From: a virus
Virus record (IMG/VR): IMGVR_UViG_3300020370_000011
Location: 1-41,738 of that record
Length of the DNA stretch: 41,738 bases
Reading direction: 5' to 3' (one strand)
Part shown: piece after piece, positions 7,997-34,595 of the stretch
Position numbering within the stretch: position 1 is the first letter of the stretch
How the letters are laid out: each line of letters opens with the position of its first letter
Made by a program: the position numbers and the translations under genes
Notes under the pieces: model-generated
Told to the model about the DNA's origin: nothing
What the model saw: the letters and a program-made list of their open reading frames with translations, nothing else
Database searches by the model: none

Positions 7997-10900
7997 TGTT
8001 CAATTCCAAAGATAAAAGTGAAGTTTTTTCAATTTTAAAACCAATGGCAGAATTAAACGCTAAATCATCTCGTCCGGGTTGCCCTTTTCTTTCTTTTCGA
8101 CCTGTTAATTTTAATCTTTCACTTGTCATTGGACTTTCTGTTACGTGTAATTTATATGTTGGGTCATTATCGTTGGAAGCAGGTAAAGATTGACTCTTGG
8201 TGACTAAATCAATAGTAAACTCATGAACAGGATTTCCATTATGAGTTCCTATCTCATTCAAAGATGTTTTAAAAGCATTTTGTAATTGAATGCAATTTGT
8301 TGGTGATGGGGATTCGCCCTTATATAAACAAAAAACATCTGATGAGGTGTTAATGGCCGTATCACTATTTGATACATTTAAAGTTGATGTTATAACAGTA
8401 GGACTATAATCTATCTGTCTTCCCTGGACCTCTTCAAAAGTTGAACGTTCTTCTTGTGTTAATGTGTGTGCTTCATTTTTCAATACAACTCTAATTATTG
8501 TATCAAATTTTGCCTTTTTAGTATTATCATCCGAATTAAAGAAATCACCATTTCTATCTTGCACAAGAACTCTATCGACTTTTGGTCTTAATTTTTCAGC
8601 AAACGTATCTCCAGTACCTAGAAGATTTCCAATAAAACTCAATCCTAGAGAACGGGTAGCTTCTAATTGTCTCATCCAAGCTGAAAATCCTGCACTATCG
8701 TTTGCCTGTCCATAAAAAACGACTGCACCTGAATATTTCAAATTACTAAGTTCGGAAGGTTCTACTATTCTGGGCCCTTTTGGTCCATCTTCCAATGTTT
8801 TTAGGACAGGTTTCATGCCTGTTATAAATTTTTCTTCTTCCAATCCGGTAAAAGGATTTGTTTCAATAATTGACTTCTTAGTTGTTTCTAAAGATAATTC
8901 AGGAAAAACATTTGGTCCTTTTTTTAAAAATTTAGCCCTACCTAATTTTCTTTTGAAATCATTAACACCTCCTGAACCACTAACGTTCAATGTGTAAAAT
9001 CCTGCTCCATTAAATCCTGCCGATAACAACTGAATTAATTGTTGTATAGTTTTATTAAATTCTTTAATAGCATCTATTTCATCCTGTAATCTTTCTATAA
9101 TATTATCTAAAAATTTTAATCCAGATTGAACATATCCTTTACCCCTTTCGATTAATGAAATTGCCTCATCAATAAATGTGCCATATGCAGGTAAAAAATC
9201 TTGAATTCTTATAAATTTCCAATTTGGCGGTCTGCCTCCTGAAAACCTGAATGTTTCAAAAGGCATCACAATTTGTCCATCACTATCTTTTTGATTAAAT
9301 TCAAAATACTTTTTCTTATCTCCAGGCACATTAATAAATGGAGCCATTGCAGTACCTTGAGTTTCATAACTACCATCACCGGTCAAACGACCCAATTTTA
9401 TTTGAATGATATTCATCCTAACAATTTCTTTAGTTTCAGTATTTCTAGAAAAAAGCATCTCTTTTGCTCTTCCTGGTATGAATGTCTTTATAGTACCTGT
9501 TTCAGAATCTTTTATAAAAATTTCTCCAACATGGTAATTTATTCCAAACCCAGGCAAAGCGCTTGCTAATTTTTTTAAATTTACCGAGACATCAGAAGTA
9601 GCTTCAGATATTTCTTCGGGTAATTTCCATTCACCCGTATTTAAATAAGTATGTCTAACAACTAATCCAACAGAAAGATTCTCTAAGAAACTAATCATTT
9701 CAGTTTCAAGTTTTTTCAGCCTACCTCTTGGTTTTGCAAATTGACCTCCTGGACCAGCATTCTCATATGATGCTATAATAAAATCTTCACTGTCATTTGA
9801 TTCTCGTGATTCTCTTAATAGTTCAGCCAAAGCTTCATTTGCACCTGCAGTTCCTAGGGTTACTGGTAAAATATGGTCGATTAAATTTTCTCCCTCTTTT
9901 ATCGTTCCTATAAATTTTATATCAGCAGGGACTGGTTCAGAAATGATAGCATCAGCAGGTTGATATAAAGGAATTTTTCTTAAAACTGCTTCGGCACCAG
10001 GACCACCAGTAACCAAAACTTGTTTAGTTTGCTCATCCTTTAATACGTCCATTCTCCTAATAACACCGGCAGAACCAACACCCCTGGTTGACCTGTTTTG
10101 TTGAATTCTTCCTCTGACGCCTTGAACAGTCAATGTGTTTCTAATAACTTTACCATTCGAAATTTGAATAGGACCATGATTTATAACTTTAGCCATGAAA
10201 CTGGGACCAAATGTCGTGCTTCTACCTTGAACTATATTATCTCCTTTTTTAAACGTAGGAAACCAATCTGGAGCAGGATTATTAGCATCTATCAATAAAT
10301 TTAAAGGTGTTCCGTCAGCATTTAATAATATATTTTTGTTTATCTTTACATTGTTCATAAAGAAAATTGAGTTTTTAGATTCTTTACTTCCATTTTTTCT
10401 TATAAGTTCCAATTCTTCACCCAAATCTGCAATCTCTTCAACTAGTTCTTGTTTTTCTTCTCTAAGGTCAAACTCATCTTCTAATGGTAAAAAACCTGAA
10501 TCTATTTCAGACGTTATTTGAGATATACTTAATTGTTTTTTTCTTATTTTTTGTTCTATATCATACGATGTTTCAACATCAAAAATCAAAGGAGGTCCTA
10601 ATTCTATTGATACTCTTTTTCCATCACTATCCGAACTTTTATCTGCACCTTCTTTAAAATTTCTTGATAAAACTCCACCAAAATAATCAGAAAATGTGGT
10701 AACCAATTGATTCAAATCACTCATCGATGGCAAAGTAAACATCAAAACCATTGCTTGATAATCACCTTTTCCAGTCGGTCTCAATTGGTCATTTGAATCG
10801 TTAAAAGAATTTATTATTATATTAATAACTTCCTCAGGATTTAATTGTCTTTTATTTAAACCAGTTTTCAATCCTTCTAAGAATGTCGCTACACCTTGGT

Positions 10901-11507
10901 CAAACGGCCCTTCCCATGTTGATGGGTCTAAAAATTCACGAATACCTCTGGTCATATCCAATAAAAAATGTTTTGATTCTCCTAATTCACTTAAATCTTT
11001 TACATTTGTTGATTGAGGATTTGCAACTAAATCATCAACTCTTGATAATTTACTTTTACTATTATTTTTCTTATCAACCAATCCGTATCCAGAAGTAGGA
11101 TTCCAAACAAGTTGTTTATTTTTCTTTTCGGAATCAGGTAAGAGATAAAATGCAAGGGCATCTAATCCTTCCTCAAGTTTACTAGTATCGACTGGAGGAG
11201 CAAGAGTTCCGCATTCCCACGGCCAAACTGTTAAAGAACCTATACCAATATTTTTTAAATCTTCTAATTCAGCAATTAAAGCATCTAATAAAGGAATTAA
11301 TACCAATGCCAATGGGTCTCTTAAAGTTTTTAATATAAATTTAGCATACTCTAGAAAACTGATTAAATTTTCCGCAACAACATTAACATTATTACCAAAA
11401 TTTTGTAATCCGCCAATAAATTGATTTATTACAGAATCTTCACCTGAACCGAAAAGTTCAGCCGCACTAGTTTTTTGCTCAAATAAAACTGGTTGTTGTT
11501 CAGCCAT
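7986..11507 (-). CDS. Large probable virion structural protein, function unknown
   Basis: A 1173-residue protein. Residues 1-110 are helical and partly hydrophobic (DPLALVLIPLLDALIAELED at about 62-81), followed by a charged linker. A predicted coiled coil lies near 310-375 (LREEKQELVEEIADLGEELE). The remainder is mixed alpha/beta with a Gly/Pro-rich stretch (GSAGVIRRMD, GGPGAEAV) near 475-500. I do not recognise a T4 counterpart. It lies between gp5 and the Ig-repeat protein and overlaps both flanking genes by a few bases, so it is almost surely a tail or baseplate component. A peripheral baseplate protein taking the place of T4 gp8-gp12 components is possible but not shown. Confidence 0.75.
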   Translation of the reverse strand: MAEQQPVLFEQKTSAAELFGSGEDSVINQFIGGLQNFGNNVNVVAENLISFLEYAKFILKTLRDPLALVLIPLLDALIAELEDLKNIGIGSLTVWPWECGTLAPPVDTSKLEEGLDALAFYLLPDSEKKNKQLVWNPTSGYGLVDKKNNSKSKLSRVDDLVANPQSTNVKDLSELGESKHFLLDMTRGIREFLDPSTWEGPFDQGVATFLEGLKTGLNKRQLNPEEVINIIINSFNDSNDQLRPTGKGDYQAMVLMFTLPSMSDLNQLVTTFSDYFGGVLSRNFKEGADKSSDSDGKRVSIELGPPLIFDVETSYDIEQKIRKKQLSISQITSEIDSGFLPLEDEFDLREEKQELVEEIADLGEELELIRKNGSKESKNSIFFMNNVKINKNILLNADGTPLNLLIDANNPAPDWFPTFKKGDNIVQGRSTTFGPSFMAKVINHGPIQISNGKVIRNTLTVQGVRGRIQQNRSTRGVGSAGVIRRMDVLKDEQTKQVLVTGGPGAEAVLRKIPLYQPADAIISEPVPADIKFIGTIKEGENLIDHILPVTLGTAGANEALAELLRESRESNDSEDFIIASYENAGPGGQFAKPRGRLKKLETEMISFLENLSVGLVVRHTYLNTGEWKLPEEISEATSDVSVNLKKLASALPGFGINYHVGEIFIKDSETGTIKTFIPGRAKEMLFSRNTETKEIVRMNIIQIKLGRLTGDGSYETQGTAMAPFINVPGDKKKYFEFNQKDSDGQIVMPFETFRFSGGRPPNWKFIRIQDFLPAYGTFIDEAISLIERGKGYVQSGLKFLDNIIERLQDEIDAIKEFNKTIQQLIQLLSAGFNGAGFYTLNVSGSGGVNDFKRKLGRAKFLKKGPNVFPELSLETTKKSIIETNPFTGLEEEKFITGMKPVLKTLEDGPKGPRIVEPSELSNLKYSGAVVFYGQANDSAGFSAWMRQLEATRSLGLSFIGNLLGTGDTFAEKLRPKVDRVLVQDRNGDFFNSDDNTKKAKFDTIIRVVLKNEAHTLTQEERSTFEEVQGRQIDYSPTVITSTLNVSNSDTAINTSSDVFCLYKGESPSPTNCIQLQNAFKTSLNEIGTHNGNPVHEFTIDLVTKSQSLPASNDNDPTYKLHVTESPMTSERLKLTGRKERKGQPGRDDLAFNSAIGFKIEKTSLLSLELNNAI

Positions 11508-18669: not shown

Positions 18670-19245
18670 ATGGCAGAACAGAGTTTTTTAGACACATTAA
18701 AAGATGCTATCAGAAAAAATGAGGGCACACCGAAAACAAGAAATGCGGCACAATGGTTTCGTAGAAAAATGGGTGCCCTGAGAGCCGAATTAAAAAATAA
18801 ATTTAGTCAAGCAGATACGGCTGACGAATTTTATAATAAATCTAAAAAATCAAAACCAACTACAATCTCTCCTGGAGTCATGGCCGCATATTTCTATGAC
18901 CCAAAAACAAAACAACAGATGAAATACTATGACAGATTTCCTCTTATCATGTGTGTGCAAATGTATAACAATGGTTTTTTAGGATTAAACTTTCATTATT
19001 TACCGCCTATGTTAAGAGCAAATCTTATGGACAATTTAGATAAAGCTAAATCATTAAATTGGAATGCATTAATTAAAATTAAACAAATCAAACCTACCGT
19101 AAAAAGATATTTGTGGTCACATATATCATCAAAAGTTGTATTGATTGATGACGATGAAAAAAACATAGCTTTATTTTTGCCCACCGAAAGATTTAAAAAA
19201 GAAAACAAACTTGTAGTTTGGAACGATAGCAGGAGTATGATTTAA
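18670..19245 (+). CDS. Conserved T4-like phage protein (LGLNFHYLPP family)
   Basis: A 191-residue protein with a basic, helical N-terminal half (NAAQWFRRKMGALRAELKNK) and a well-conserved core: AAYFYDPKTKQQMKYYDRFP, then NGFLGLNFHYLPPMLRANLM at about residues 101-120, and RYLWSHISSKVV plus IALFLPTERF near the C-terminus. I know this motif set from many T4-like phages of marine and enteric hosts, where naming is inconsistent; some place it with the DNA-end protector gp2, others with the baseplate hub. T4 has gp2 beside gp4, which would fit the neighbour here. I leave the symbol empty because the sequence alone does not settle it. Its stop overlaps the next start (TAATG). Confidence 0.75.
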   Translation: MAEQSFLDTLKDAIRKNEGTPKTRNAAQWFRRKMGALRAELKNKFSQADTADEFYNKSKKSKPTTISPGVMAAYFYDPKTKQQMKYYDRFPLIMCVQMYNNGFLGLNFHYLPPMLRANLMDNLDKAKSLNWNALIKIKQIKPTVKRYLWSHISSKVVLIDDDEKNIALFLPTERFKKENKLVVWNDSRSMI

Positions 19246-19841
19246 TGCCATTAAGTATTCAAAAATTCAGAGAAAATTTTCGTTTTGAACCAGCTCCAAC
19301 CAATAGATTTGAGGTATATTTTGAGGGTTTAAATTCTAAAGTTGCAATTAATAATCCAGGAAACTTACAATTTAGATTAGATACTGCTGAATTACCTCCC
19401 AGGTCTTTAGCGACTGTTCAAGATAAAATATATGGACCTATAAGAAATATGCCATATACCTCAACATATGTAGATACTACAATGTCTTTTATTTGCTCTT
19501 CCGATGGCATGAAAGAGAAAAGATTTTTTGATTTGTGGCAAAATTTTATCAATGATTCAAGTTCTTTCGATATCGAATATTGGAAGACATTTACTTGTAA
19601 AATGAAACTTTTAGTTTTTAGTAATTTAAATACATTAATGTATACATGTGTATTTCATGAAGCATATCCCATGATTGTAAGTGGTATACAATTATCACAA
19701 GCAAACGATGAATTTGCAAGAGTGAATGTCACATTTTCATTTCATAAATGGAATTTAGGTGAGAATGATACAGGAAGTGTAAACTATCCACCTGAAAGTA
19801 GAAATAGTTTAGATTTTGAGGATGAAATATTTAATGCTTAG
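19245..19841 (+). CDS. Tail-tube-fold protein (gp54/gp19-like)
   Basis: A 198-residue protein with the phage tube fold pattern: NRFEVYFEGLN (about 21-31), LQFRLDTAELPPRSLATVQD (about 41-60), YGPIRNMPYTSTYVDTTMSF (about 63-82), a helix KRFFDLWQNFIND, and a C-terminal strand pair HEAYPMIVSGIQLS with FARVNVTFSFHKW. This matches gp19 tube and gp54 tube-initiator proteins (compare FNMAYNS and ITTFDVTFAYRV in T4 gp54). Because it sits with gp26 and the tape measure and not next to a sheath gene, I favour the gp54-type tube initiator; it is shorter than T4 gp54 (320 aa), so a minor tube protein is also possible. Confidence 0.8.
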   Translation: MPLSIQKFRENFRFEPAPTNRFEVYFEGLNSKVAINNPGNLQFRLDTAELPPRSLATVQDKIYGPIRNMPYTSTYVDTTMSFICSSDGMKEKRFFDLWQNFINDSSSFDIEYWKTFTCKMKLLVFSNLNTLMYTCVFHEAYPMIVSGIQLSQANDEFARVNVTFSFHKWNLGENDTGSVNYPPESRNSLDFEDEIFNA

Positions 19842-19854
19842 TTAATTTATAATG

Positions 19855-19866
19855 TATGACACAGGC
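19855..19866 (+). repeat. 12-bp inverted repeat, left arm (TATGACACAGGC)
   Basis: TATGACACAGGC lies immediately before the gp26 ribosome site (GAAAGGA). Its exact reverse complement GCCTGTGTCATA begins 1 nt after the gp26 stop codon at 20622. The arms are 6/12 GC in a strongly AT-rich region, so a chance match at such exact gene borders is unlikely. They could pair in the gp26 mRNA and affect initiation or frameshifting. Confidence 0.75.
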
Positions 19867-19877
19867 GAAAGGAAATT

Positions 19878-20621
19878 ATGGCTTTACCCACCATTGAAAC
19901 GCCAATCCATGATATTTTTTTAACATCACTTGATAAAAAAATCAAGTATAGACCATTTTTAGTCAGAGAAGAAAAAATATTATTGATGGCAATTGAAAGT
20001 AATGATGAAAAAGAAATGTATGAAGCTATGAAAACAATTTTGAAAAATTGTATTCTAGAAAAAAACATTGACGTTGAATCGTTACCCATATTTGATGTGC
20101 AATTTTTATTTCTTCAACTCAGAGCAAAATCTGTAGGAGAAGTAGCAGAAGTTACACTTAAACACCCTAATGGTAAAAATAAAAACGGAGAAGAGTGTGA
20201 CGGCATACAACCAATTAATATAAATCTGAATGAGGTTAAACCAATCATACCAGAAAATCATTCTAAAGTAATTAGATTGAGTGAAAAAATTGGTGTATCT
20301 ATGATGTATCCCACTTTAGATTTTTTTAAAAAAATAGATGACATGCAAACTCAAGAAAAAGGTGTTGTCGAATCTCTATTCGATTCTATTGCCAATTCAA
20401 TAGAATATATCTATCAGGGTGAAGAGATATTCTATGCAAATGAACATTCAAGAGAAGAATTATTAGATTTTTTAAACAGTCTTAATAATACGCAATTTGA
20501 AGAATTGCGAAATTTCTTTTCATCAATGCCATCTATTCAACATAAAGAAACATATACCTGCCCTAAATGTGGCAGTCAAGAAGAATTAACACTTAGTACG
20601 GTAGAAGATTTTTTCGCATAA
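19878..20621 (+). CDS. 26: Baseplate hub assembly protein gp26 (tail assembly chaperone, short product)
   Basis: A 247-residue member of the T4 gp26 baseplate family. The start MALPTIETPIHDIFLTSLDK followed by KIKYRPFLVREEKILLMAIE is the usual signature. About residues 70-100 (LPIFDVQFLFLQLRAKSVGE) and a C-terminal Cys pair (YTCPKCGSQEELT, about 227-240) are conserved; the CxxC may be half a zinc site. Gp26 is needed for hub assembly in T4 and is not in the mature virion. With the adjoining frame and the tape measure gene next, it has the layout of the lambda G/GT chaperones. Ribosome site AAAGGA lies just upstream. It ends at TAA 20619, 3 nt after a T-TTT-TTC slippery sequence. Confidence 0.92.
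   Translation: MALPTIETPIHDIFLTSLDKKIKYRPFLVREEKILLMAIESNDEKEMYEAMKTILKNCILEKNIDVESLPIFDVQFLFLQLRAKSVGEVAEVTLKHPNGKNKNGEECDGIQPININLNEVKPIIPENHSKVIRLSEKIGVSMMYPTLDFFKKIDDMQTQEKGVVESLFDSIANSIEYIYQGEEIFYANEHSREELLDFLNSLNNTQFEELRNFFSSMPSIQHKETYTCPKCGSQEELTLSTVEDFFA
20609..20615 (+). other. Probable -1 programmed frameshift site T TTT TTC
   Basis: In the gp26 frame the bases read GAT TTT TTC GCA TAA. T-TTT-TTC fits the X-XXY-YYZ slippery heptamer exactly in phase. After a -1 slip the next codon is CGC at 20615, and the frame stays open to TAA 20810-20812. The extended product would be 311 residues against 247 for gp26. The 12-bp inverted-repeat arm begins 7 nt downstream and may serve as a stimulator. 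Confidence 0.75.
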
Positions 20622-20812
20622 GCCTGTGTCATAATACGCTTGAAAATTATTTCATTACCAACTTTAATATGATGCAACATCATAAATATTCATTGACAGA
20701 GTTGGATAATTTAATACCGTTTGAAAAAGAAATTTATGTCAATTTATTAGTGAGTCATATAAAAGAAGAAAATGAAAAAATAAGAGACCAACAAGCACAT
20801 TCTAGAAGGTAA
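20615..20812 (+). CDS. 51: gp51-like tail assembly chaperone extension, -1 frame of gp26
   Basis: This 65-codon frame lies -1 to gp26 and adds RISLCHNTLENYFITNFNMM, then QHHKYSLTELDNLIPFEKEI, and ends IRDQQAHSRR. The LxxYFxTNFxMMQHHKYSL pattern resembles the small hub-assembly protein encoded after gp26 in marine T4-like phages and the T part of gpG-T chaperones. The recognisable sequence begins upstream of the first ATG in this frame (20669), and that ATG has no ribosome site, so synthesis by frameshifting from gp26 is the simplest reading. T4 encodes gp51, a hub assembly catalyst, at this place. The stop is 1 nt before the tape measure ATG. Confidence 0.75.
   Translation, partial: RISLCHNTLENYFITNFNMMQHHKYSLTELDNLIPFEKEIYVNLLVSHIKEENEKIRDQQAHSRR
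20622..20633 (+). repeat. 12-bp inverted repeat, right arm (GCCTGTGTCATA)
   Basis: This is the exact reverse complement of the arm at 19855-19866 and starts directly after the gp26 TAA, 7 nt 3' of the slippery heptamer. It is also coding in the -1 frame (…LCHN). Long-range pairing with the gp26 leader would place a stable duplex at the usual distance for stimulating -1 slippage. Confidence 0.75.
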
Positions 20813-20813
20813 A

Positions 20814-23294
20814 ATGGCCGAAACATTAAAAGACGTTATTGAGCAATTAAAAATACAAAACACTTCATCTAAACTTCCAGTTGTAGGTGAAGTAAGAAAT
20901 TTAGGAACTCAGTTCACTAAACTGAACTTCAATCTCAAAAGATTTACAGATTCGTCAGTTCAATTAAATTCAGAAATGATAGAAAAAAATGAACTGATAA
21001 ATGCCGAAAATCTCTCAAATCAAAATGATAATGCAGAGTTGTTAAATTTGCAATTAATGGATATAGGTAATGTGTTTTCTACAAAAATAGATGACTTAAA
21101 AAGTTTTCTATTGGATGGTCCTAAAGTTAGTGATGATATGTTGAATGAAATCAAAAATCAATCCAGTTACATGCAAGAAGTTGGTCGAATGCAAGGTGAT
21201 TATTTTTCTGAACTCAGAGAACAACTCGCAATAAACAACGAACCTACAAGAGAAGAAGTAAAAGAAGATAATTCGGATGATAAAGTTGCCAAGGACACTC
21301 TCATTATATCTAAAGAATCAAACTCCACATTAAATCAAATGATGTCTTTTTTCATGGCAGAATCCGAAAGAGATAAATTAAGAGAGCAAGAAGAAAAAAA
21401 CGAAAGAAAAAGTTCAAAACCTTTATCCGAAAAAACAGTAGACCCATCGAGATTAGTACGAGGTAATAAAGGTATATTAGGAATTCTTCAAGAATTTCTC
21501 ACTACTGCATTTTTAGGGTCAAAAGGTAAGGCATTACTTAGAAGTTTAATTCCTGGAAAATTTACTATAGGAGGTTTTGGTAAGACATTAATGACAGGTA
21601 TAGCAGGCGTTTTATTCGGACCAGAATTGATAAAAGTAATATCAAACGCATTTGACGGTGCCATGAAAGAAGAAGGAATCAGTAATATGGCTCTTGAAGG
21701 AGCAAAAACATTTCTAAAAGATGCTGATACATCAACTCTTGCGGCCGTTGGTGGTGTAGGAGGTCTTTTACTAGGAGGAGTGCCTGGTGCAATTACTGGT
21801 GCATTATTAGGCGTTTCCCTCAAAGCAATAGGTTCGGCACTTGGTGGTGAAAAAACCGTAATAGACCTTGCCGAAGGTGATGTAACAAAATTACAAGGTC
21901 TGTTGGGAGGAGCCGCATCTGGTGCCGGTATAGGATTTATGTTGGGAGGTCCAACCATACAAGGAAGACTCGCAGGAGCATTATTGGGCGCAGGTGTTGG
22001 AGCACTTGCCGGCTATTTAAATTCAAAAGAAGAAATGTCTCTTACAGAAGTAATTACTGGAGCTATTGGAGTTGGAGCAGGAATAAAAGCCGCCATGATG
22101 CTAGGCGCAAAAGCAGGAATGGCAGGTGGACCATTGGGAATGATAGCAGGAGCATTAATAGGAGCCGCCCTTGGATTGGCATTTGGGGCGTTAATGAAAC
22201 CTCCTAAAAATGCAATAGAAAAAGAAATGGATAAAGTCACAGAGGAACTTGAAGAAGCAAAAAAGTTAAGAGAAGCGAGAACTGCAGGTAAAACACTTAC
22301 ATCAGACCAAGCAAAAAAAGTTAAAAATTATGAATCTGGGGATTTGCAAAAGAACTTACTTCAGCAAACCCAAGATTTAGTTTTTGAACATGAAGGCAGT
22401 TCAATGATGAGAGGGTTTGAAAGAGGCTTGGCACTAAAAAAACTTGCAGAAACTGGAGAATATACTCAAGATGAAATTTATGAAGAAAACGAAAGAATGA
22501 ATAAACGGTCTGCAATAAATTCATTTAAAAAATTCAATCAAATATTCAATACAAATCATGAAACTATTATGGATTTAGTCAAAGCCTATGCAAACACGAC
22601 CAGAATAAATGAAATAGAATTAAATGAAGATATGAAAATAAAATTACCAATCTCGGGTAATAGTGAGGGCGAGACTAACATGATGAGGTCTAGAATTGAA
22701 ATGTTAGGAGGTGATATTAATACTGGTGTTGTCACAATAGAAAAAGGAACAGACTTAGATGAAGCGATAAAATCTGCAATTGGTTATCCTGCGGCAAGAA
22801 CTTTAATTCAAGACCTCGTAACACCAGCAAAGCTTTTGATGAATAAATTAGATGACCAAGATAGTAATAATTTTAATGATGCTGGAAGATATGTAGGAAA
22901 AATGGCACAGGGTGGATTACTTACTCCTGATATGGGACCAATAACAGCCATTATAAATGAAGATGCTAGATTTTCACCTGAAGGTATTTTCAATAGACCT
23001 CAAATGCAGTACATTGCCGATTTAATCAAACCAAAACGTACTGAAATAAATTTAAAATCAGATAATAGTTTTGCGAAAAATCCTCAAATTCAAGAAAAAT
23101 ATTTTGCTATGAATGCTATGCAATCTGAAAATGAAGCCCGAAGAAGAGATATGGCGACACCAATTGTGATGCCACCATCTGCACCAAATATTGTAGATAA
23201 CAAAAATATAACGGTGCAAGAACAATTCAATGTAACTGAGATGTTGCCTGCACCGTCTTCTCACGTATCTTTTAAAGATAATATAGTATATTAA
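20814..23294 (+). CDS. 29: Tape measure protein (gp29-like)
   Basis: An 826-residue protein directly after the gp26/gp51 chaperones, the standard place for a tape measure. The N-terminal 220 residues are polar and helical (EEVKEDNSDDKVAKDTLIIS). Residues about 240-470 carry Gly/Ala-rich hydrophobic hairpins such as VGGLLLGGVPGAITGALLGV, AGALLGAGVGALAGYL and GPLGMIAGALIGAALGLAFG, typical of tape measure proteins that enter the host membrane during DNA delivery. The rest is helical and charged. T4 gp29 has 590 residues, so if length scales the tail tube would be longer here. Ribosome site AGAAGG overlaps the end of the gp51-like frame. Its stop overlaps that of gp32 (TTAA). Confidence 0.82.
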   Translation: MAETLKDVIEQLKIQNTSSKLPVVGEVRNLGTQFTKLNFNLKRFTDSSVQLNSEMIEKNELINAENLSNQNDNAELLNLQLMDIGNVFSTKIDDLKSFLLDGPKVSDDMLNEIKNQSSYMQEVGRMQGDYFSELREQLAINNEPTREEVKEDNSDDKVAKDTLIISKESNSTLNQMMSFFMAESERDKLREQEEKNERKSSKPLSEKTVDPSRLVRGNKGILGILQEFLTTAFLGSKGKALLRSLIPGKFTIGGFGKTLMTGIAGVLFGPELIKVISNAFDGAMKEEGISNMALEGAKTFLKDADTSTLAAVGGVGGLLLGGVPGAITGALLGVSLKAIGSALGGEKTVIDLAEGDVTKLQGLLGGAASGAGIGFMLGGPTIQGRLAGALLGAGVGALAGYLNSKEEMSLTEVITGAIGVGAGIKAAMMLGAKAGMAGGPLGMIAGALIGAALGLAFGALMKPPKNAIEKEMDKVTEELEEAKKLREARTAGKTLTSDQAKKVKNYESGDLQKNLLQQTQDLVFEHEGSSMMRGFERGLALKKLAETGEYTQDEIYEENERMNKRSAINSFKKFNQIFNTNHETIMDLVKAYANTTRINEIELNEDMKIKLPISGNSEGETNMMRSRIEMLGGDINTGVVTIEKGTDLDEAIKSAIGYPAARTLIQDLVTPAKLLMNKLDDQDSNNFNDAGRYVGKMAQGGLLTPDMGPITAIINEDARFSPEGIFNRPQMQYIADLIKPKRTEINLKSDNSFAKNPQIQEKYFAMNAMQSENEARRRDMATPIVMPPSAPNIVDNKNITVQEQFNVTEMLPAPSSHVSFKDNIVY

Positions 23295-24829: not shown

Positions 24830-25089
24830 ATACCAGGTATTGTAGCAGTTTTTGGGAGAAAATGCAAGTTGATAGCCTCTTCTCTTACTTTCTGTTTTAA
24901 AACTCCTTGTACTAATTTACCTGCCGTTTCTGGTTCCATTTTTGTTTCTTGACAATAATAGCTTATAGCATCTAAATATGTCATTCTTTTATTCATTACG
25001 ATATCTTCGATAATTTCTGTAAAATCTTGAGGTTTTATTGTTTTTAACAAAAACTCTCCTTTAATTAATTGTATCAAATAATCATTCAT
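24826..25089 (-). CDS. 33: Late-promoter coactivator gp33
   Basis: An 87-residue protein from ATG 25087-25089 (T4 gp33: 112). Gp33 bridges RNA polymerase and the sliding clamp to activate late transcription. IVMNKRMTYLDAISYYCQET parallels MVEEFGMSYLEATTAFLEEN in T4, and the C-terminus ends in a hydrophobic tail (NLHFLPKTATIPGI). Position before gp59 and gp32 supports the call. Two starts are plausible. The ATG overlaps the upstream stop by 8 nt. Alternatively TTG 25048-25050 follows AAAGGAGAG, itself just downstream of a consensus-like promoter, and would give 74 residues. The promoter-derived transcript could only use the TTG. Confidence 0.85.
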   Translation of the reverse strand: MNDYLIQLIKGEFLLKTIKPQDFTEIIEDIVMNKRMTYLDAISYYCQETKMEPETAGKLVQGVLKQKVREEAINLHFLPKTATIPGI

Positions 25090-25096
25090 TTGTCAA
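25068..25096 (-). promoter_or_regulatory. Sigma-70-type promoter at the gp33 start
   Basis: On the minus strand TTGACA (25091-25096) is followed after exactly 17 bp by TACAAT (25068-25073). A start about 7 nt downstream would put the transcript 5' end right at AAAGGAGAG, the ribosome site for a TTG start of gp33. It overlaps the end of the 1129-aa enzyme gene and would let gp33-gp59-gp32 be transcribed apart from the glycosylation genes. Confidence 0.65.
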
Positions 25097-28000
25097 TTCT
25101 TGTATCACGTTATCCACTGCATCACAAACCGATTCCACCGAAATGTTTTTTGTACATTCAAACATTCTATCAGTTCCTTCATGGTCAGGACACCATGTCC
25201 AATTTGATGGGTCAAGTTTCACACGATTATAACAACCATGACACACATCAGTATTAATAATTCTTGTGCATTTATTTTGAAATTCGGAAAAAGGTTGACT
25301 AAATCCTGAAATAAGTATTACCTCTTTATTTAGAGCCCAAGAAATCCAGGATAATCCTGAACCTATTCCGATAAAAAATTCAGAACCTGCAATCGTTGCA
25401 ATTGTCTGGTCTAATGTTCTTTCATTTCTTTTGATAGCATTTGAAGGATTTGAATTCATATGAGGTTCTTTTCCAAAATGCTCATGTTTATCGACAAAAA
25501 CAACACCATAACCTTTGCTTTTTATATAATCAGTAAGTTTTTCCCAACCGCCAGGATTGTTCCAATATTTGGCCTGGGCAGTTGATTGCATCCCAATAGC
25601 AACATATGGAGTTTTTAATTCAGTTTCTTTTTCCTTTACAGTTATTTTAGTAGGTACTTCTTTCATACCTTCAACACCCAAAATACTAGCACACACATTT
25701 TGTAATGATGTATTTTTACAATCAATGGGATTAAATTGGCCTTCTTCCAACCAAGGTATTCTATACTGTATTTCGAAATCATCAAAACCTGTATTCGGCT
25801 CGATGAATTTTATATCAAGGTACTCTTTTTCAAATAAATCATTAAAAAACGTAGCACATGTCACATGTTTTACATTATATGTTTTTCTAAATTCATCTAC
25901 GGCCGAAACCCACGCAACATTATCACCGATAGATTTAGAATCAAAATAAACATGTGTTTTTCTACTCGTTATTTCTTCTGTCAAATCATATTCAAAAATT
26001 ATTTCACCATTCTCTATGCGTTCCACATATATTAGCCAAGGAATAAAATATTTTTCAGATACGGCCGCCCAATGATTGTTTCTAAGTTGTGTAGAAAATT
26101 TTATTTCTCCTGTGTTTTTATTTTTAAATACTACGTTATATTCTTCACCGTCTTGACATATTAATGTTGCTATAGGATTACCTTCTTTCAAATTTATTTC
26201 CAAACAAACATCTATCTTTTGCTCATAATGTTCTGGTTGCTCAGTCTTTTCAACAACATTTTCATACGTGTCTTCCAACCTATCTTTCATAGTGACAGGC
26301 ACATTATTTCTCAATGAAACAAATTCATCATATAAACGCTTGTTAATCTCATAACATTTATCCCAAGTTTTATCTAAAGTAAAATCATTTGCAATGCCGC
26401 TAATAAGTTCATATGAATTATCTTTTAAAATTTTTCTAATATTTTCAATGATAGAATTTTTAGTTTTTTCGATAGATAATAAACCAGGTATTGATTTTTC
26501 ACCAGTTACAGACAAACATACCATGCCTGTTGACATAGCATTTAATGTATCAGAAGTTAAATAATTATCATTTAAGTTTATGAAAAAATGATTTTCATTA
26601 TATAAATCATTTAATTGATTATCGGTTACTTCTCTTAAATGAGAGACCGTATCATGTTCAGTATCAAAATTACCTAGTATTTCAATCAAAGATTTGTATT
26701 GACTAGAATTTTCATCTGCTTCTGGAGTCACAATTATGACCGGTAAATGCATCTCTCTCGCCACTAATAAGGATAAATGGGCCGATGATTTAGACAGGTT
26801 CCTCTCGACACATATTAATTTTGGAGTATTAGGGAATCTAAAAACAGTATTTCTTTCAGATTTGTTATAGTAAACTTCTTTATATGTTCCGATACTCAAA
26901 TGATGAAAATCGTTTTTGGTGTTGTCAGTTCTTTTGCTCGATACATTTAATAAAGATTTAGATAATAAATCTTCATGCAATTCATCATGTTCATGAACAA
27001 AATTCATAAAAGGTATATACATTTGTTGAAGTTTATCATTTAAAAAAGAATCGTGATTTATAATTACATCATATTTTTCTAAATCTGTTTGAGTAATGTC
27101 GTAATATTTCTTTAAAATGACATCATTGCCAGCCCTTGATTCTGCCATCATCAATTCTTCTATTATTTTATTTTTAGAATTATTAGTATTTTCTGGTTCT
27201 ACGTGTAAAAAATTATAATTATTCTTTATTTCTTTTGGTTTTATATTATCAGTCTTTGTCTCTATTTGATGTTCTATCACATTCTCGACATTAACCGTTT
27301 TATCGAAAGAGGCAAAAAATCTATTTTTTTGAATATTGAAAAAATGATGATATCCTTCGGCAGTTAACATTTGGCATAATGTTTGTAAATAATCTTTATT
27401 CGTTTTATTATTGTGCATTAAATGTGTATTACTGCAAAAAACTGTTACATTTGATGTATTTTTAATTTTAGAAATTAATTTCATTATATCTTCAGGTTCA
27501 TTCTGTATATCCATATTTAAAATATAATATTCGGAACCAGAATATTTATCAAAGTGTAATGTATGCTCATGAAATAAAATTTTAGATTTTACTTTTTGTT
27601 CATCTGATAGATTAAAGTTTAAAAAAGAAATATTTTTATTTTCAGTTTCATAATTTAATTTATTAGTATAAACAGATTCAGCCAATTCAAATATATCATC
27701 AAAATATTTTATATTTCTAGGCCGCTCTAATATCAAATTTTTTCTTCGTTCTCTGGCGTCTTCTATTAATTTTACTTCACCTCTAATGTTCCATTTAGTG
27801 AATTGTTCACTACCTACTCTTCTACGAATAAGATAAGTAGTTCTAGGTATAGTCATCCATTTTCCATACTCTTCTGCCACTAAACACCATTGACCATCAT
27901 TTGAAGAACAGGCCTCTCCATCTTCATGAACTGGAAATTTTAATCGAGAGTCATTTTTTATCACACGTAAACAACCAAATATATCTGTTCTGAATGGTGT

Positions 28001-28471
28001 TAATTTTTCAAATCCTTCCAAAAAAGAATCGTTATCAGTTGAAATATAAACATTTTCTACAAAATTATTGATAAATTCATCTTTATTCTTCGGCAAATTA
28101 TCAGAAAATTTATTAGCATAAAAGTGTAAAAAATATAAATCTGGAAATTTACCAAAATAATAATTTATATGTTTCAAAGTATTTGGTAATATTCTATCAT
28201 CAGAATCTAAATGAGCAAAAACATCTCCAGTTGCGGCAATTTGTGGATTCCACCAATATTGTTTTTTAAACTCCGCTTTCAAACTTCTAATTCTACCATC
28301 TCTTTTTACAACTTCAGAAATAATTTCTTGCGTATTATCTTCAGAAAAATCATCTATTAATATCCATTCCCAATTTTTATAATTTTGTGATAATATAGAA
28401 TCACAAGTCTCATGTAAATACGGACCGCAATTATAACATGATGTTACAATAGATATTTTAATTTCACTCAT
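25082..28471 (-). CDS. Three-domain glycosyltransferase: GT2 + GT-B-like + TibC/Aah-type autotransporter heptosyltransferase
   Basis: A 1129-residue fusion. Residues 1-250 are a GT2 domain (SIVTSCYNCGPYLHETCDSI; DDFSEDNT 40-47; DSDD 89-92). The middle, about 300-720, looks like a degenerate GT-B glycosyltransferase (PKLICVERNLSKSSAHLSLL; MSTGMVCLSV). Residues about 755-845 form a beta-sandwich (FKNKNTGEIKFSTQLRNNHW), and 845-1129 match autotransporter O-heptosyltransferases: YFDSKSIGDNVAWVSAVDEF, QSTAQAKYWNNPGGW (962-976), GIGSGLSWISWALNK and the four-cysteine iron finger C1077-H-G-C1080, C1094, C1106. Family enzymes move ADP-heptose to Ser of bacterial autotransporters. Here the acceptor is unknown; a phage virion protein or a host surface protein are candidates. 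It follows the 889-aa enzyme by 1 nt and overlaps gp33 by 8 nt. Confidence 0.85.
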   Translation of the reverse strand: MSEIKISIVTSCYNCGPYLHETCDSILSQNYKNWEWILIDDFSEDNTQEIISEVVKRDGRIRSLKAEFKKQYWWNPQIAATGDVFAHLDSDDRILPNTLKHINYYFGKFPDLYFLHFYANKFSDNLPKNKDEFINNFVENVYISTDNDSFLEGFEKLTPFRTDIFGCLRVIKNDSRLKFPVHEDGEACSSNDGQWCLVAEEYGKWMTIPRTTYLIRRRVGSEQFTKWNIRGEVKLIEDARERRKNLILERPRNIKYFDDIFELAESVYTNKLNYETENKNISFLNFNLSDEQKVKSKILFHEHTLHFDKYSGSEYYILNMDIQNEPEDIMKLISKIKNTSNVTVFCSNTHLMHNNKTNKDYLQTLCQMLTAEGYHHFFNIQKNRFFASFDKTVNVENVIEHQIETKTDNIKPKEIKNNYNFLHVEPENTNNSKNKIIEELMMAESRAGNDVILKKYYDITQTDLEKYDVIINHDSFLNDKLQQMYIPFMNFVHEHDELHEDLLSKSLLNVSSKRTDNTKNDFHHLSIGTYKEVYYNKSERNTVFRFPNTPKLICVERNLSKSSAHLSLLVAREMHLPVIIVTPEADENSSQYKSLIEILGNFDTEHDTVSHLREVTDNQLNDLYNENHFFINLNDNYLTSDTLNAMSTGMVCLSVTGEKSIPGLLSIEKTKNSIIENIRKILKDNSYELISGIANDFTLDKTWDKCYEINKRLYDEFVSLRNNVPVTMKDRLEDTYENVVEKTEQPEHYEQKIDVCLEINLKEGNPIATLICQDGEEYNVVFKNKNTGEIKFSTQLRNNHWAAVSEKYFIPWLIYVERIENGEIIFEYDLTEEITSRKTHVYFDSKSIGDNVAWVSAVDEFRKTYNVKHVTCATFFNDLFEKEYLDIKFIEPNTGFDDFEIQYRIPWLEEGQFNPIDCKNTSLQNVCASILGVEGMKEVPTKITVKEKETELKTPYVAIGMQSTAQAKYWNNPGGWEKLTDYIKSKGYGVVFVDKHEHFGKEPHMNSNPSNAIKRNERTLDQTIATIAGSEFFIGIGSGLSWISWALNKEVILISGFSQPFSEFQNKCTRIINTDVCHGCYNRVKLDPSNWTWCPDHEGTDRMFECTKNISVESVCDAVDNVIQELTNE

Positions 28472-28472
28472 A

Positions 28473-31142
28473 TCAAAGACTTTCTTTTAATTGTTTTATT
28501 TTTTCTTCCGATAATCCAGTTGTACCGTCTTTATAATTTTTATCCAAATAAGAATCACCTGAACATTGAATAGATAACGGTTCTTTCAATATGCAACCAT
28601 GACCGTGCCACATAACATTGTTGTTTAACCATAAATCAAAAGTATCCCATCCTGTATTATTCAATTGTTGCACGAAAAAATCTTTTTCATATGTAGGAAT
28701 CATATAAAAATGTGCTTCGGACATTCTGTTTGTTGTTCCTAGATAATCATTAAATTCTGTATGAGGTTGACCAAGAATTCTTTTCGCCATATTCATTATT
28801 TTCATATTATTATACCTCATATCATCAAATCTGTCTAGTATTATTTTATAAACTTTTTCATAAGATTCAATTAATATGGCATCACATTCACAAAAAATAA
28901 TACCATCATATTCATCACTTAAATGTTCTTCTATTGCAGTTTTATGAGCAAGAAAATTACCATAATGAGCTGGAGACAATTTATATTCGCCAGGCTCTAT
29001 TTGTACCACATCTGGTCTAGCACAGGTTTCAATAGGAGGTAACTCGGTATAAAGTTCATTTATCATTTGAACATATTCAAAACCTGAATATTCAGAAAAT
29101 TCTTTCAATTGCCTGATAGATTCTTTTTCACGAACTCCTTCAACATCAACTAACATATGTACCATTTTTATTTTTGGAATTCTTTTAGCAAAAAGATTTC
29201 CACACTCTCCATTTAATATTTTTTGCTCATAATCAACATCAAATTCACATTCTTTAAGCCTATTAATCAATCCCAATGACCTCGTTTTTCTAGAGGCTAA
29301 ATCATTATTTTCATGAAAATCGTGAACTTCCATTACAATTTTTCTAACTTTACGTTTTAAAAAATCATCACTAATTGTAGGCAATATATCCCACTCAGAA
29401 CCCTCACAATCTAATTTCAGAATATCAATTCTATCAACAGAATAATTTTTAATAAAAGAATTGAAATCTATTGTTTTAACATTTTCTCTAACCTTTATGC
29501 CCATATTAACATCATTAGATTCATCTGTGTTATAACTCTCATAAAAAGAGTGAACCGCACTAGAGCCAACATGAATGAATTCTTTTTCTCCATTTTTATC
29601 TGACAACGCCATGTTTATTTTTGTTACATTATCATATTTTTTTAAATTTTTACACAATATATTAAATGTTTTCTTAGAAGGCTCCAAAGTATATACATGA
29701 GAAACATTATTTTTTAAACAATATACATCAAAAAAACCATAATGACCTCCTACATCAACTACAATATCGCCTTCTTTCACATCTATATTTTTATAAACTT
29801 GATGAAGAAATATTTCGTACATTGTAAACCAAGCGGAAGGGTCATCTTTTATACCATGTATATCTTTTAAACCTAAATCATTTTCAAAATCACATTCTTT
29901 TTCAAAAATAACATTGTGCCTTGTCAATAGATTTTCTTCTGATAAATTAGAAAAATATTTGTAATCTATATCATAAATTTTTATAGATAACCCACTTAAA
30001 AATTTCTTTCTAGAATTTAATACTACCCACCAAGAATTAGCAGAAATTTTTGTTCTATAAATCAATTGTTCTGTTTTTAAATCATAAACACATAACATTT
30101 TATTTTTCAATAAATCAAAAAATTTTGTACAATTTAAATTTAATTTTATACTATCTTGATTAGAGTCATATTCTAAATCAATTTTATAAAAATTATCTTG
30201 CAAATCCAATTCATTTAATATTTTTAATGCATTTATATTCAAATCTTCCGACAGATAAGTAACTTTTTCATCAAATTTATCGAGATAACTATCGGTATGA
30301 TGAATCAATGTTTTCATTTTATGCGATAATGCTTCTTTTATCGATAAGGGATTAGTTTCCTTGTCGCCAGAATGACCCCTTGAAGGAAATAAAAATAAAT
30401 CCATTGCCGAATAAAAATTACTAACATCGGACCTTTCTCCCCAAATAACACAATTTTCTGGCTTATTGTTAACAAGAGGTTCCCAATACAGTTTAAAATT
30501 TGGTGCAGTATTTCCTATAAAATGAAATTTGATTGGAAAATCTTTTAAGATTTTAGCATATTCAAATATTTCTGCTTGATTTTTTCTTGGCGTAAATAGC
30601 CCGACATGAACAACGTGTTTAAAATTATTATCCAGTTTTAAAGCACTAAATGATTTAGATTTATTAATTTCAGGTTTTTCGATTGGATATTCAATCACAC
30701 ATGATGGTATATTTAATTCTTTGAAATTTATAAGTTGATTGTCGCTACAGAACAAAAATTTATCTGGAAAAAACTTTTTATCGCTATGATGAAAAGATGA
30801 ATCATGTGACGTTTCAAAAATTTTGTAACTTCTATCATTAGAATAAACTTTTTTTGCCAAATGGTCATGCATAAAAAATTCTGGCATTTCAACAAAATGA
30901 ATGATATCAGGATTCCATAAATTAATATAGGTTATAAGTTCATTTTTGTCATCATATAAAGTTTTGTGTTTATCGCCTAATATTTTGATTATTTTATTTT
31001 TTTGAACTCTATAATGCCCGTGGTCGCTGTATTCGATGACATATATATCATATACAGAAGATAAAAATTCTATTTTTTTTAGTAAATATTGGGGAGCCCC
31101 ACCTGTGGATAAATGTGGAGTAATATATAATAATTTCTTCAT
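28473..31142 (-). CDS. Fusion enzyme: GT4 glycosyltransferase + FkbM methyltransferase + GT-A domain
   Basis: An 889-residue fusion. Residues 1-310 are a GT4 (GT-B) domain: LLYITPHLSTGGAPQYL at the start, VVHVGLFTPRKNQAEIF (177-193) and the C-terminal site DLFLFPSRGHSGD with NPLSIKEALSHKMK (248-277). Residues 335-420 are a beta domain resembling the one before the heptosyltransferase of the next gene (ISANSWWVVLNSRKKFLSG). Residues 435-645 are an FkbM-type SAM methyltransferase (VDVGGHYGFFD 462-472, LEPSKKTFNIL, ILKLDCEGSEWDIL 574-587). Residues 655-889 look like a GT-A enzyme with the metal motif CECDAIL (751-757). It probably builds and O-methylates a glycan. First gene after a consensus promoter; there is no clear Shine-Dalgarno. 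Confidence 0.85.
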   Translation of the reverse strand: MKKLLYITPHLSTGGAPQYLLKKIEFLSSVYDIYVIEYSDHGHYRVQKNKIIKILGDKHKTLYDDKNELITYINLWNPDIIHFVEMPEFFMHDHLAKKVYSNDRSYKIFETSHDSSFHHSDKKFFPDKFLFCSDNQLINFKELNIPSCVIEYPIEKPEINKSKSFSALKLDNNFKHVVHVGLFTPRKNQAEIFEYAKILKDFPIKFHFIGNTAPNFKLYWEPLVNNKPENCVIWGERSDVSNFYSAMDLFLFPSRGHSGDKETNPLSIKEALSHKMKTLIHHTDSYLDKFDEKVTYLSEDLNINALKILNELDLQDNFYKIDLEYDSNQDSIKLNLNCTKFFDLLKNKMLCVYDLKTEQLIYRTKISANSWWVVLNSRKKFLSGLSIKIYDIDYKYFSNLSEENLLTRHNVIFEKECDFENDLGLKDIHGIKDDPSAWFTMYEIFLHQVYKNIDVKEGDIVVDVGGHYGFFDVYCLKNNVSHVYTLEPSKKTFNILCKNLKKYDNVTKINMALSDKNGEKEFIHVGSSAVHSFYESYNTDESNDVNMGIKVRENVKTIDFNSFIKNYSVDRIDILKLDCEGSEWDILPTISDDFLKRKVRKIVMEVHDFHENNDLASRKTRSLGLINRLKECEFDVDYEQKILNGECGNLFAKRIPKIKMVHMLVDVEGVREKESIRQLKEFSEYSGFEYVQMINELYTELPPIETCARPDVVQIEPGEYKLSPAHYGNFLAHKTAIEEHLSDEYDGIIFCECDAILIESYEKVYKIILDRFDDMRYNNMKIMNMAKRILGQPHTEFNDYLGTTNRMSEAHFYMIPTYEKDFFVQQLNNTGWDTFDLWLNNNVMWHGHGCILKEPLSIQCSGDSYLDKNYKDGTTGLSEEKIKQLKESL

Positions 31143-31226
31143 AAAATATAGTTATTTCAAGTTCATAAATAATACAGTAATATTTAGTATATCACTTTAA
31201 ACCCTTTTTGTCAATGTGGATTAATA
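31143..31226. other. Divergent intergenic region
   Basis: These 84 bp separate the minus-strand enzyme operon from the plus-strand 31227 operon. They contain the minus-strand sigma-70-like promoter described separately, and on the plus strand CATAAATA at 31164-31171, one mismatch from the T4 late consensus but 55 nt from the next ATG. There is no hairpin or coding frame of note. Confidence 0.6.
31186..31214 (-). promoter_or_regulatory. Consensus sigma-70-type promoter for the glycosylation/replication operon
   Basis: The minus strand has TTGACA (31209-31214), exactly 17 bp, then TATACT (31186-31191). Transcription would begin near 31179, about 36 nt before the ATG of the 889-aa enzyme. This is the best host-type promoter in the window and suggests early transcription of both fusion enzymes, with read-through into gp33-gp59-gp32. 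Confidence 0.75.
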
Positions 31227-32453
31227 ATGCCTGCACAAGCTTTTTATAAAGGTTCTTTTTTCAATTCTCCTATATTTTATGATAGAGTGTTAAATGGGTT
31301 AAAAAAAGTAGATGATATCGCATTGGAAAGAATAAGTTTTTTAATTCGTTATCTATATTCCCAAGAAATAAAAAGATATCATTACTATGAAAAATATCCT
31401 AACTTGATACCTTCGGGCAAAACTTTAGCCGATTATATTGTATCCGGTGCCTTATCGGCCACTAAAACCGCAGGAGATGGAAAAATAAATATAGGTTTTG
31501 TAACCGATTCCGTTAGAGACTTTGGAATATCGGTTTCTCCTGATAACGACAATTTGGCACCTCCTCCTGGTGCTGACATATCAAGAATACCATTTCCTGG
31601 GTTAGTTTTTTCAACGACAAATACAAATTTATATCAATACTCTGTTATACCGTCTCAAATACTAAAAAGTAACTTAAATTCTAGTAGTTATTTCGTATAC
31701 GATGATAGTTATTTTAGTGGCTCTTTAAGAATTTCTGGAGGTAGAAGAGAGCAAGATTTAACCCATACTATAGTTTTCGATTCAATAAATCAATTAGATA
31801 AAGGTGATGGTTTAGGCTCCTATTTTATAGCATCTTCAAATGACCTAGACCCTAATACGGGTCAACCATCCACTGCAGGTGACCCAGGTACCTGGTTCGA
31901 CTGTGGAAGTTTTTTTCAAGATACCCTTTTTGACCCACAAAATTCTCTTGTGTATCCAACTAATAGTTTTCAACAGGTATCAATTGATTATAATTTATGG
32001 GTAAAAACAGATTTAGACAATGTTACTTTCTCTTTTCCTAGTAGCATAAAAGGGTTTTTAAACCACGATTCGAATTTAGATAATGCAGGAGCATTGCAAG
32101 AGTTTTATCCTGATTTTTCGATATCTGAAGTTTATTTCAATAATTCATCAGGCGCTGATACTCTTCATCTAGCCCCTTCTCTTTATAAAGATGTTTTACT
32201 ACCAATATTTCGTAGATACTATCCAATATATACTTTAGGCACAACAGACCCAGGAGTGCGTAATAGAAAAGGTAGGATTTTTGACAATTACTATGAAAAA
32301 TCTGAATCTATGGTCGTGTTAAATAATAGCGTGTATACAAAAATAGCGGAACCAAAATTTCAAGACGAATTAGGAAATTTTTATGGGTCAAATCAAAATT
32401 ATCTTAGAATTAAAAATACATATTTTTTAAAAACGGATATACTTTTTACATGA
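31227..32453 (+). CDS. Unrecognised protein, possible virion component (408 aa)
   Basis: A 408-residue protein with a helical N-terminus (ALERISFLIRYLYSQEIKRY) followed by a long Ser/Asn/Asp-rich, probably beta-structured body (SNLNSSSYFVYDDSYFSGSL). Near residue 325 it has LPIFRRYYPIYTLGTTDPG, which echoes a segment of the next protein (KIFLRRYPVYDFTNSQNPG), so the two may be distant paralogues. No signal peptide, membrane segment or catalytic motif is seen. The next gene overlaps by ATGA. Composition is like other structural proteins here. No strong ribosome site is visible before the ATG. I cannot assign a function. Confidence 0.7.
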   Translation: MPAQAFYKGSFFNSPIFYDRVLNGLKKVDDIALERISFLIRYLYSQEIKRYHYYEKYPNLIPSGKTLADYIVSGALSATKTAGDGKINIGFVTDSVRDFGISVSPDNDNLAPPPGADISRIPFPGLVFSTTNTNLYQYSVIPSQILKSNLNSSSYFVYDDSYFSGSLRISGGRREQDLTHTIVFDSINQLDKGDGLGSYFIASSNDLDPNTGQPSTAGDPGTWFDCGSFFQDTLFDPQNSLVYPTNSFQQVSIDYNLWVKTDLDNVTFSFPSSIKGFLNHDSNLDNAGALQEFYPDFSISEVYFNNSSGADTLHLAPSLYKDVLLPIFRRYYPIYTLGTTDPGVRNRKGRIFDNYYEKSESMVVLNNSVYTKIAEPKFQDELGNFYGSNQNYLRIKNTYFLKTDILFT

Positions 32454-33940: not shown

Positions 33941-33953
33941 GAGATTTAAAAAA

Positions 33954-34595
33954 ATGGAAGATAATACAAATGTGATACCTGATTTTGAAAAACATAATGA
34001 AAATGAAATCATAATTTCCGATACGATAGAGCCAGAAATCGATGAAAGAATGATTGAACATGAAAAAATGATTGAGGAGCATAATAAGAAAAGAGAAGAA
34101 TTACTAGAAAGAATGACGATTACTGGTGCATATTATCCATCCGTCAGTAATAGAGTTTCATTTTTTGTGGAGTATTTTTTAGATGCTGAAATAAATGAAC
34201 CGAAAAAAGAATTAGTTTCAACATTAACTAAAAGTGATATGCTAGATAGAGTATTAAAAACAGTCACTTTTGATGATATATTAGAAAACACAAAAAAACG
34301 AGAAGAACTAATTACCAAAATGAATCAAGAATTTTTAGAATTTACGGAATGGAAAAAAGATGGAACGATAACTTCGAATTCTGAAAATGAAAAAAATTAT
34401 TATTCTTTGGAGAAATTAGAAAATTTAGAAACAGAGTCATTATTTAAATTAAAATTAGAAATTTTCGAACAAGAAATAGTTCAAAATAGTGAAGATAGAG
34501 AACTTAGGTCGAGTATTAGAAAATCAAAAAATGTTGTGGAATTATTACACTACTATTGGGAAATACAACAAGAAAAAGTTAATGAAACCGAGTAA
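33954..34595 (+). CDS. Acidic helical protein of unknown function (213 aa)
   Basis: A 213-residue, Glu/Lys-rich protein. Residues about 25-55 (DERMIEHEKMIEEHNKKREE) are predicted coiled coil; the core ITGAYYPSVSNRVSFFVEYF (about 56-75) is the only less charged part, and the C-terminus is again helical. A proper ribosome site (TAGGAG) precedes the start, 13 nt after the previous gene. It could be an assembly chaperone for the two upstream products, as is common for small helical proteins downstream of fibre genes, but nothing proves this. Its 3' end overlaps the converging glycosyltransferase gene by 17 nt. Confidence 0.7.
   Translation: MEDNTNVIPDFEKHNENEIIISDTIEPEIDERMIEHEKMIEEHNKKREELLERMTITGAYYPSVSNRVSFFVEYFLDAEINEPKKELVSTLTKSDMLDRVLKTVTFDDILENTKKREELITKMNQEFLEFTEWKKDGTITSNSENEKNYYSLEKLENLETESLFKLKLEIFEQEIVQNSEDRELRSSIRKSKNVVELLHYYWEIQQEKVNETE

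Follow-up and report, generated by a model that had tools for sequence, protein, structure and literature searches.

How does a T4-like phage produce the long partner of its gp26-type tail protein, if the distal domain of that partner is encoded in another reading frame and has no start site of its own? This question is raised by a locus in the window, i.e., the complete stretch of 41,738 bases that was analysed (IMG/VR virus record IMGVR_UViG_3300020370_000011, a partial record), of which the source is an uncultured T4-like phage. The minus strand of the window encodes T4-like wedge proteins, a gp5-type hub/lysozyme protein and tube-cap proteins, with the gene for a single-strand DNA binding protein further downstream, while the plus strand encodes head closure, DNA end protector and tail-tube-like proteins. 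Two very large minus-strand ORFs among the baseplate genes (3968-7996 and 7986-11507; 1342 and 1173 aa) are without a PHROG match at E 0.001. The region beyond the gene for the single-strand DNA binding protein (25082-41667) contains glycosyltransferase-like, methyltransferase-like and radical SAM-like ORFs and is possibly a surface-modification or metabolic island. An Rfam search of the window returned no known element. The features that make up the locus are the following.

19245-19841, plus strand: tail-tube-like protein of 198 aa, 5′ neighbour of gp26 (PHROG 45, E 8e-24)
19855-19866, plus strand: leader arm TATGACACAGGC, in the noncoding stretch that separates the upstream ORF's stop codon from the ribosome site of gp26 (conserved in 12 loci)
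19868-19874, plus strand: Shine-Dalgarno (SD)-like AAAGGAA of gp26, just 3′ of the leader arm (anti-SD energy -4.7 kcal/mol)
19878-20621, plus strand: gp26-type gene, short tail assembly chaperone (TAC-N, equivalent of G), 247 aa (PF12322, E 3e-58; PHROG 150, E 3e-62)
20609-20615, plus strand: slippery T-TTT-TTC, matching the gp26 reading phase and ending 3 nt 5′ of the gp26 stop codon (from the sequence; 166 of 169 loci)
20615-20812, plus strand: -1 frame extension, T-like domain (annotated as 'gp51' in cyanophages), 65 codons and a stop codon (PHROG 634, E 1e-27)
20622-20633, plus strand: downstream arm GCCTGTGTCATA, fully complementary to the leader arm and immediately 3′ of the gp26 stop codon (conservation and predicted folding)
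20814-23294, plus strand: ORF of 826 aa, candidate tape measure (by position only)

The gp26-type gene and its -1 extension

The Pfam family PF12322 covers the entire gp26-type protein of the window. Its AlphaFold2 model has a mean pLDDT of 91, and a Foldseek search of BFVD with this model yields only viral gp26-type proteins and uncharacterised phage proteins. In the PDB no match is found by sequence profile, nor by Foldseek at E ≤ 0.001 with the same confident model. The 3′ end of the gene reads GAT TTT TTC GCA TAA, and the -1 frame is open from 20597 to the stop codon at 20810-20812. Together, gp26 and the -1 extension would form a predicted fusion of 311 aa (TAC-NC), with TVEDFFRISLCH as the predicted peptide across the junction. 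The position and phase of the heptamer and the lengths of the two products, as given in an earlier note on this DNA, are all confirmed by the sequence. According to that note, the -1 frame is open up to the tape measure gene; the frame is indeed open to 20812, and a single base separates its stop codon from the start of the 826-aa ORF, but the tape-measure label is based on position only. This ORF has no tape-measure match in PHROG, Pfam or NCBIfam, where only weak Gly-zipper matches are observed, and no BLASTP match to the ORFs at the same position in other phages.

On its own, the heptamer of the window is weak evidence, because the sequence is AT-rich and, given gp26 codon usage, a locus would have the slippery form by chance with a mean probability of ∼0.46. 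It is the conservation across loci which decides that the observation is real. Loci were collected from annotated phages and from IMG/VR, where they were found by the gp26 protein or by the T domain, and the removal of near copies left 169 non-redundant loci. The full-diversity alignment (A1) lacks conserved stretches, and closer subsets were used for searching. In 166 of these an in-phase T-TTT-TTN closes gp26, ending in TTC (135 loci), TTT (27), TTA (3) or TTG (1), and the T domain lies in the -1 frame, without an intervening stop, in all 164 loci in which it was detected. Phe-Phe pairs elsewhere in the same gp26 genes show the slippery form in only 10 of 155 cases, or 10 of 86 if a suitable preceding residue is required. 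The joint codon-usage probability of the heptamers is 1e-66, a value which ignores shared ancestry and is not to be taken literally. In the -1 frame, the 17 codons from the shift to a conserved Met have a pN/pS of 0.27, versus 1.2 and 1.6 for the other frames, from which it follows that the DNA has been selected as a -1 frame protein ahead of the usual Met. The claim that gp51-like sequence begins before any ATG is hereby upheld. The conservation of heptamer and frame in related phages, which the earlier note had proposed as a check, is observed; a T domain in an unrelated frame with its own ribosome site and no conserved heptamer, the pattern named there as contradictory, is not what these loci contain.

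The three loci of the 169 that lack the heptamer (L009, L015 and L016) are those of Vibrio phage K475 and of two Ackermannviridae (Kujavirus and Escherichia phage AV101). L009 and L016 contain a TAATG stop-start overlap with a downstream short ORF, so that they may make the T domain by coupling or by a different slip. In a KVP40-like locus (L014) heptamer and TAATG are both present. For L017 (S-SSM4), L018 (ACG-2014e), L012 (ZPAH1) and L019 (HTVC008M) the public annotation omits the T domain or starts it internally at an ATG, and PHROG 634 ('baseplate hub assembly catalyst') may have been built partly on ORFs with doubtful starts.

Frame, heptamer and coding are conserved and the downstream domain is without a start site; these observations strongly support -1 frameshifting. 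As judged from the sequences, programmed -1 frameshifting almost certainly produces the long chaperone TAC-NC, and the 311-aa fusion is taken to be the functional product of the T-domain frame. Two other origins of this domain have been considered. It could be expressed as a separate gene, initiated independently (ATG 20669) or through coupling, in which case there would be no functional fusion. This reading agrees with the short gp51 gene that GenBank records contain for most cyanophages, with a Met at codon 18 or 19 past the shift being common among the loci, and with the TAATG of L009 and L016, but is extremely improbable in view of the purifying selection ahead of that Met, the near-universal heptamer and T4 gp51, which is exactly such a fusion in a single frame. 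Moreover, no ribosome site is found at the codon-18/19 Met, where the mean anti-SD energy is 0.15 kcal/mol, weaker than at random positions (gp26 starts, -5.5), and for ATG 20669 of the window the value is 2.6 kcal/mol. Alternatively, the long product could result from slippage of RNA polymerase, rather than of the ribosome, on the run of T. Runs of 8-9 T do occur in some loci (e.g., L029 and L030), but 135 of the 166 sites have only TTTTTTC, with a run of six, and in other clades SD-like and structural elements are located at ribosomal spacing, making polymerase slippage very unlikely. Programmed ribosomal frameshifting is thus the reading that is followed below.

Local stimulators and the leader-downstream pair

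Across the whole locus set, an SD-like sequence (GGAGG-like) is usually present 8-10 nt 5′ of the heptamer. Within this element, GAG is used for Glu 64 times out of 89, against 966 out of 3784 in the remainder of gp26 (Fisher p 2e-19), and Leu codons with a final G account for 48 of 76, against 866 of 3274 in the remainder (p 6e-11). The element is therefore enriched beyond amino-acid constraint, and is likely a frameshift stimulator of the dnaX type across cyanophage-type T4-like phages. The RNA 3′ of the slip site is more stable than its shuffled counterparts, with a mean z of -1.7 over 100 nt compared to -0.2 to -0.7 for control stretches. Strong local hairpins just past the slip site are observed in L007 (S-PM2), L006, L397 and L408, with sequences that are unrelated between clades, and RNAalifold, applied to 223 downstream sequences from outside the window clade, gives no single consensus hairpin; the hairpins differ by clade.

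In the clade of the window both elements are weaker. The SD-like energy is -3.2 versus -6.5 in the remaining loci (p 3e-5, ignoring shared ancestry), and local downstream folding has a z of +0.7 versus -0.6 (p 0.005, again ignoring shared ancestry). The sister groups of this clade have the SD-like sequence and, mostly, the local folding. One locus with the long-range helix described below, L340, combines it with a local hairpin.

The most unusual feature of the locus, which is absent from the earlier note, is the pair of complementary arms in the gp26 leader and directly behind the gp26 stop codon. The downstream arm begins 6 nt past the heptamer, and the two arms are ∼750 nt apart. Among 236 loci, 12 carry both arms and 224 carry neither, with not a single locus having only one. 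When IMG/VR was searched with the downstream arm only, the leader arm was present in every gp26 locus with enough upstream sequence; three of the 12 loci (L329, L340 and L362) were found only in this way, the leader arm having played no part in finding them. In a search with the gp26 protein only, the closest relatives (at least 48% identity) all carry both arms. Two further gp26/T loci, L363 and L332, have the downstream arm on contigs that end before the leader; the T domain of L363 is more divergent.

A 12-bp inverted repeat is not rare in this AT-rich window, which contains 31 such pairs of 12 bp at such a distance, and the case for the helix is therefore based on its conservation. The 10-mer core of the leader arm is invariant in the 12 loci, whereas the other leader columns are ∼50% alike, and the gp26 proteins of 11 loci share 43-73% identity (that of L002, the remaining locus, has 91% identity to the protein of the window). 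Each of 14 records, which are up to 84 kb long, holds a single copy of the core in each orientation. The leader arm is noncoding, past the stop of the upstream ORF, in 12 of 12 loci. In the coding arm the codons AGC CTG TGT are frozen in 11 of 11 loci, wobble bases included, while other Leu codons vary freely. Unconstrained folds of ∼850 nt give the helix a pairing probability of 0.98-1.00 in all 12 loci. Two edge pairs have changed on both sides, one being A-U, G-U or G-C and the other U-A, U-G or C-G. The covariation signal stems from these edge pairs only, because the 10-bp core is invariant, and is modest, as its score is equalled by 12 of 500 shuffles.

In the protein tree, the 12 loci that carry the pair group together in a single clade of 13 rows (support 100/99). 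The thirteenth row, L031, is nested with weak support; it keeps the heptamer and lacks both arms. A search for some other complement to the downstream region gave nothing for L031, and nothing beyond chance for the sister groups. The clade loci are metagenomic, with no cultured phage found inside the clade, and the best gp26 identity to a cultured phage is ∼43%. Taken together, the conservation of both arms makes it probable that the helix has been selected as an RNA pairing, and the predicted long-range pairing of slip site and leader in this lineage appears to be new.

A possible role for the helix

In the proposed mechanism, some of the ribosomes translating gp26 would slip back one base at T-TTT-TTC and continue in the -1 frame. 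The slip would yield the 247-aa TAC-N, like lambda G, and the 311-aa TAC-NC, like lambda GT, of which the latter, by analogy with lambda, would be the minority product; the short and long chaperones would then guide the tail tube onto the tape measure. The leader (19855-19866) would pair with 20622-20633, closing the gene into a loop of ∼750 nt, and the resulting helix most likely stimulates the slip, presumably by standing at the entry of the ribosome. Such a mechanism implies that the leader arm would have to re-pair behind translating ribosomes. The helix is read as a stimulator because of its position and because of the weakness of the usual stimulators in the clade. The best explanation of the locus as a whole, i.e., a -1 slip to TAC-NC that is most likely stimulated by the leader-downstream helix, is considered reasonably probable; that the helix raises frameshifting is, taken separately, an evenly balanced proposition. 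More tentatively, the clade may have replaced local stimulators by a long-range mRNA helix between the ribosome-binding leader of gp26 and the sequence just past its slip site and stop codon, which would physically couple initiation traffic to the frameshift ratio.

The main alternative follows from the fact that the helix joins the start region of gp26 to its stop codon. The helix could govern initiation or recycling, either by masking the start region or by bringing the stop codon beside the start, leading to reinitiation. The gp26 ribosome site is immediately preceded by the leader arm, three loci (L029, L030 and L324) have no evident SD sequence besides an AGG within the arm, and in the window and most T-TTT-TTC loci the downstream arm directly follows the gp26 stop codon. 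However, control of initiation or recycling does not explain the constant spacing of 5-6 nt from the heptamer (though this spacing could be inherited with the coding sequence), nor the weak SD-like and hairpin stimulators of the clade, and the arm-to-ATG spacing has a spread of 11 nt; such control is regarded as rather unlikely. Less likely still is that the arms act as a DNA-level inverted repeat flanking gp26, for example as the site of a regulator or a recombination enzyme. Such a site would fit a core that is invariant rather than freely covarying, and its occurrence exactly once per orientation in each record. The same records, up to 84 kb, are free of extra copies, though, while one of the arms is embedded in codons of a conserved tail protein at a fixed spot past the slip site, and the edge bases mostly still pair (A-U, G-U, G-C), so that a DNA-level role has a low probability. 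Stimulation of the slip by an RNA helix is thus retained as the preferred reading of the pair.

T4 and other known systems

In T4, gp26 and gp51 are paralogues. Both match PF12322, the family shared with the window, and they are similar to each other by BLASTP (E 2e-6). T4 gp51 (249 aa) matches phrog_150 (13-280) as well as phrog_634, which is also matched by the -1 frame product of the window. The alignment reveals that T4 gp26 ends, with EFFELL, at the shift point, and that T4 gp51 runs on past this point, without a change of frame, through the T-like domain. As gp51 is paralogous to gp26 and holds both the gp26-type and the T-like domain, T4 gp26 is the short chaperone (TAC-N) and gp51 the long one (TAC-NC). 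T4 has two copies of the family, in separate and divergently transcribed genes, versus one copy in each of 19 other phages; unlike the window, with one gene and a frameshift, T4 has a second gene in place of the frameshift. The equation of T4 gp26 and gp51 with G and T, made in the earlier note, is consequently correct for gp26 as G, but gp51 is the equivalent of the G-T fusion, carrying a whole gp26-type domain in addition to the T-like domain. This corrects the annotation of many cyanophage genomes, of which the 'gp51' is the tail end of a fusion and is not homologous to T4 gp51 over its full length.

Tail assembly chaperones of T4-like phages, including a short gene and a longer fusion gene in some of these phages and poly-T slippery sites in TAC-N genes, were reported by Vladimirov et al. 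2022 (doi 10.1016/j.virol.2021.11.003), as cited in PMC10885494 and PMC12846349. To the extent that these citing papers convey that work, the frameshift interpretation is mostly right and was largely known already for T4-like phages. In a 2016 review T4 is still given as an exception (PMC5009743). In GenBank, Acinetobacter phage records already list these genes as 'tape measure protein assembly chaperone'.

The tail chaperone frameshift of the lambda G/GT type (Xu, Hendrix, Duda 2004; reviewed in Atkins et al. 2016, PMC5009743) has in common with the window a -1 slip on an in-phase heptamer that ends the first ORF, a fusion which gains a C-terminal domain, an adjoining tail-tube-like gene and a candidate tape measure behind it. 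The lambda precedent invoked in the earlier note thus extends to the architecture, the -1 frame overlap and the heptamer, but not to any detectable link in sequence or fold from gp26 to solved structures, and so not to lambda G or HK97 gp13. The heptamers also differ, being T-TTT-TTC in the window and GGGAAAG in lambda, and the window clade has the long-range helix. In E. coli dnaX, frameshifting is stimulated by an upstream SD-like sequence; the GGAGG-like sequence 8-10 nt before the heptamer in other clades resembles this arrangement, whereas it is weak in the clade of the window.

Long-distance frameshift stimulators are known from plant RNA viruses, i.e., barley yellow dwarf virus, red clover necrotic mosaic virus and pea enation mosaic virus RNA 2 (PMC5009743). 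As in these viruses, an element ∼6 nt past the slip site of the window pairs with a distant part of the same RNA. The partner in the window, however, is located 5′, ∼750 nt away in the gene's own leader, and not up to 4 kb 3′, and the pairing would be a plain duplex in the mRNA of a dsDNA phage, instead of the loop-to-bulge pairing of the plant RNA viruses. Should the proposed role be correct, it would possibly be, within the literature searched, the first long-distance -1 frameshift stimulator in a dsDNA phage.

Lambda depends critically on the proportion of short and long chaperone, and how phages set this ratio has been little explored beyond a few models. The present family has three apparent solutions, i.e., an SD-like sequence with a local hairpin, a long-range helix, and two genes in T4, which puts the evolution of a frameshift signal within reach of direct tests. 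If true, a helix that joins leader and stop in a phage mRNA would connect initiation to recoding in a new way.
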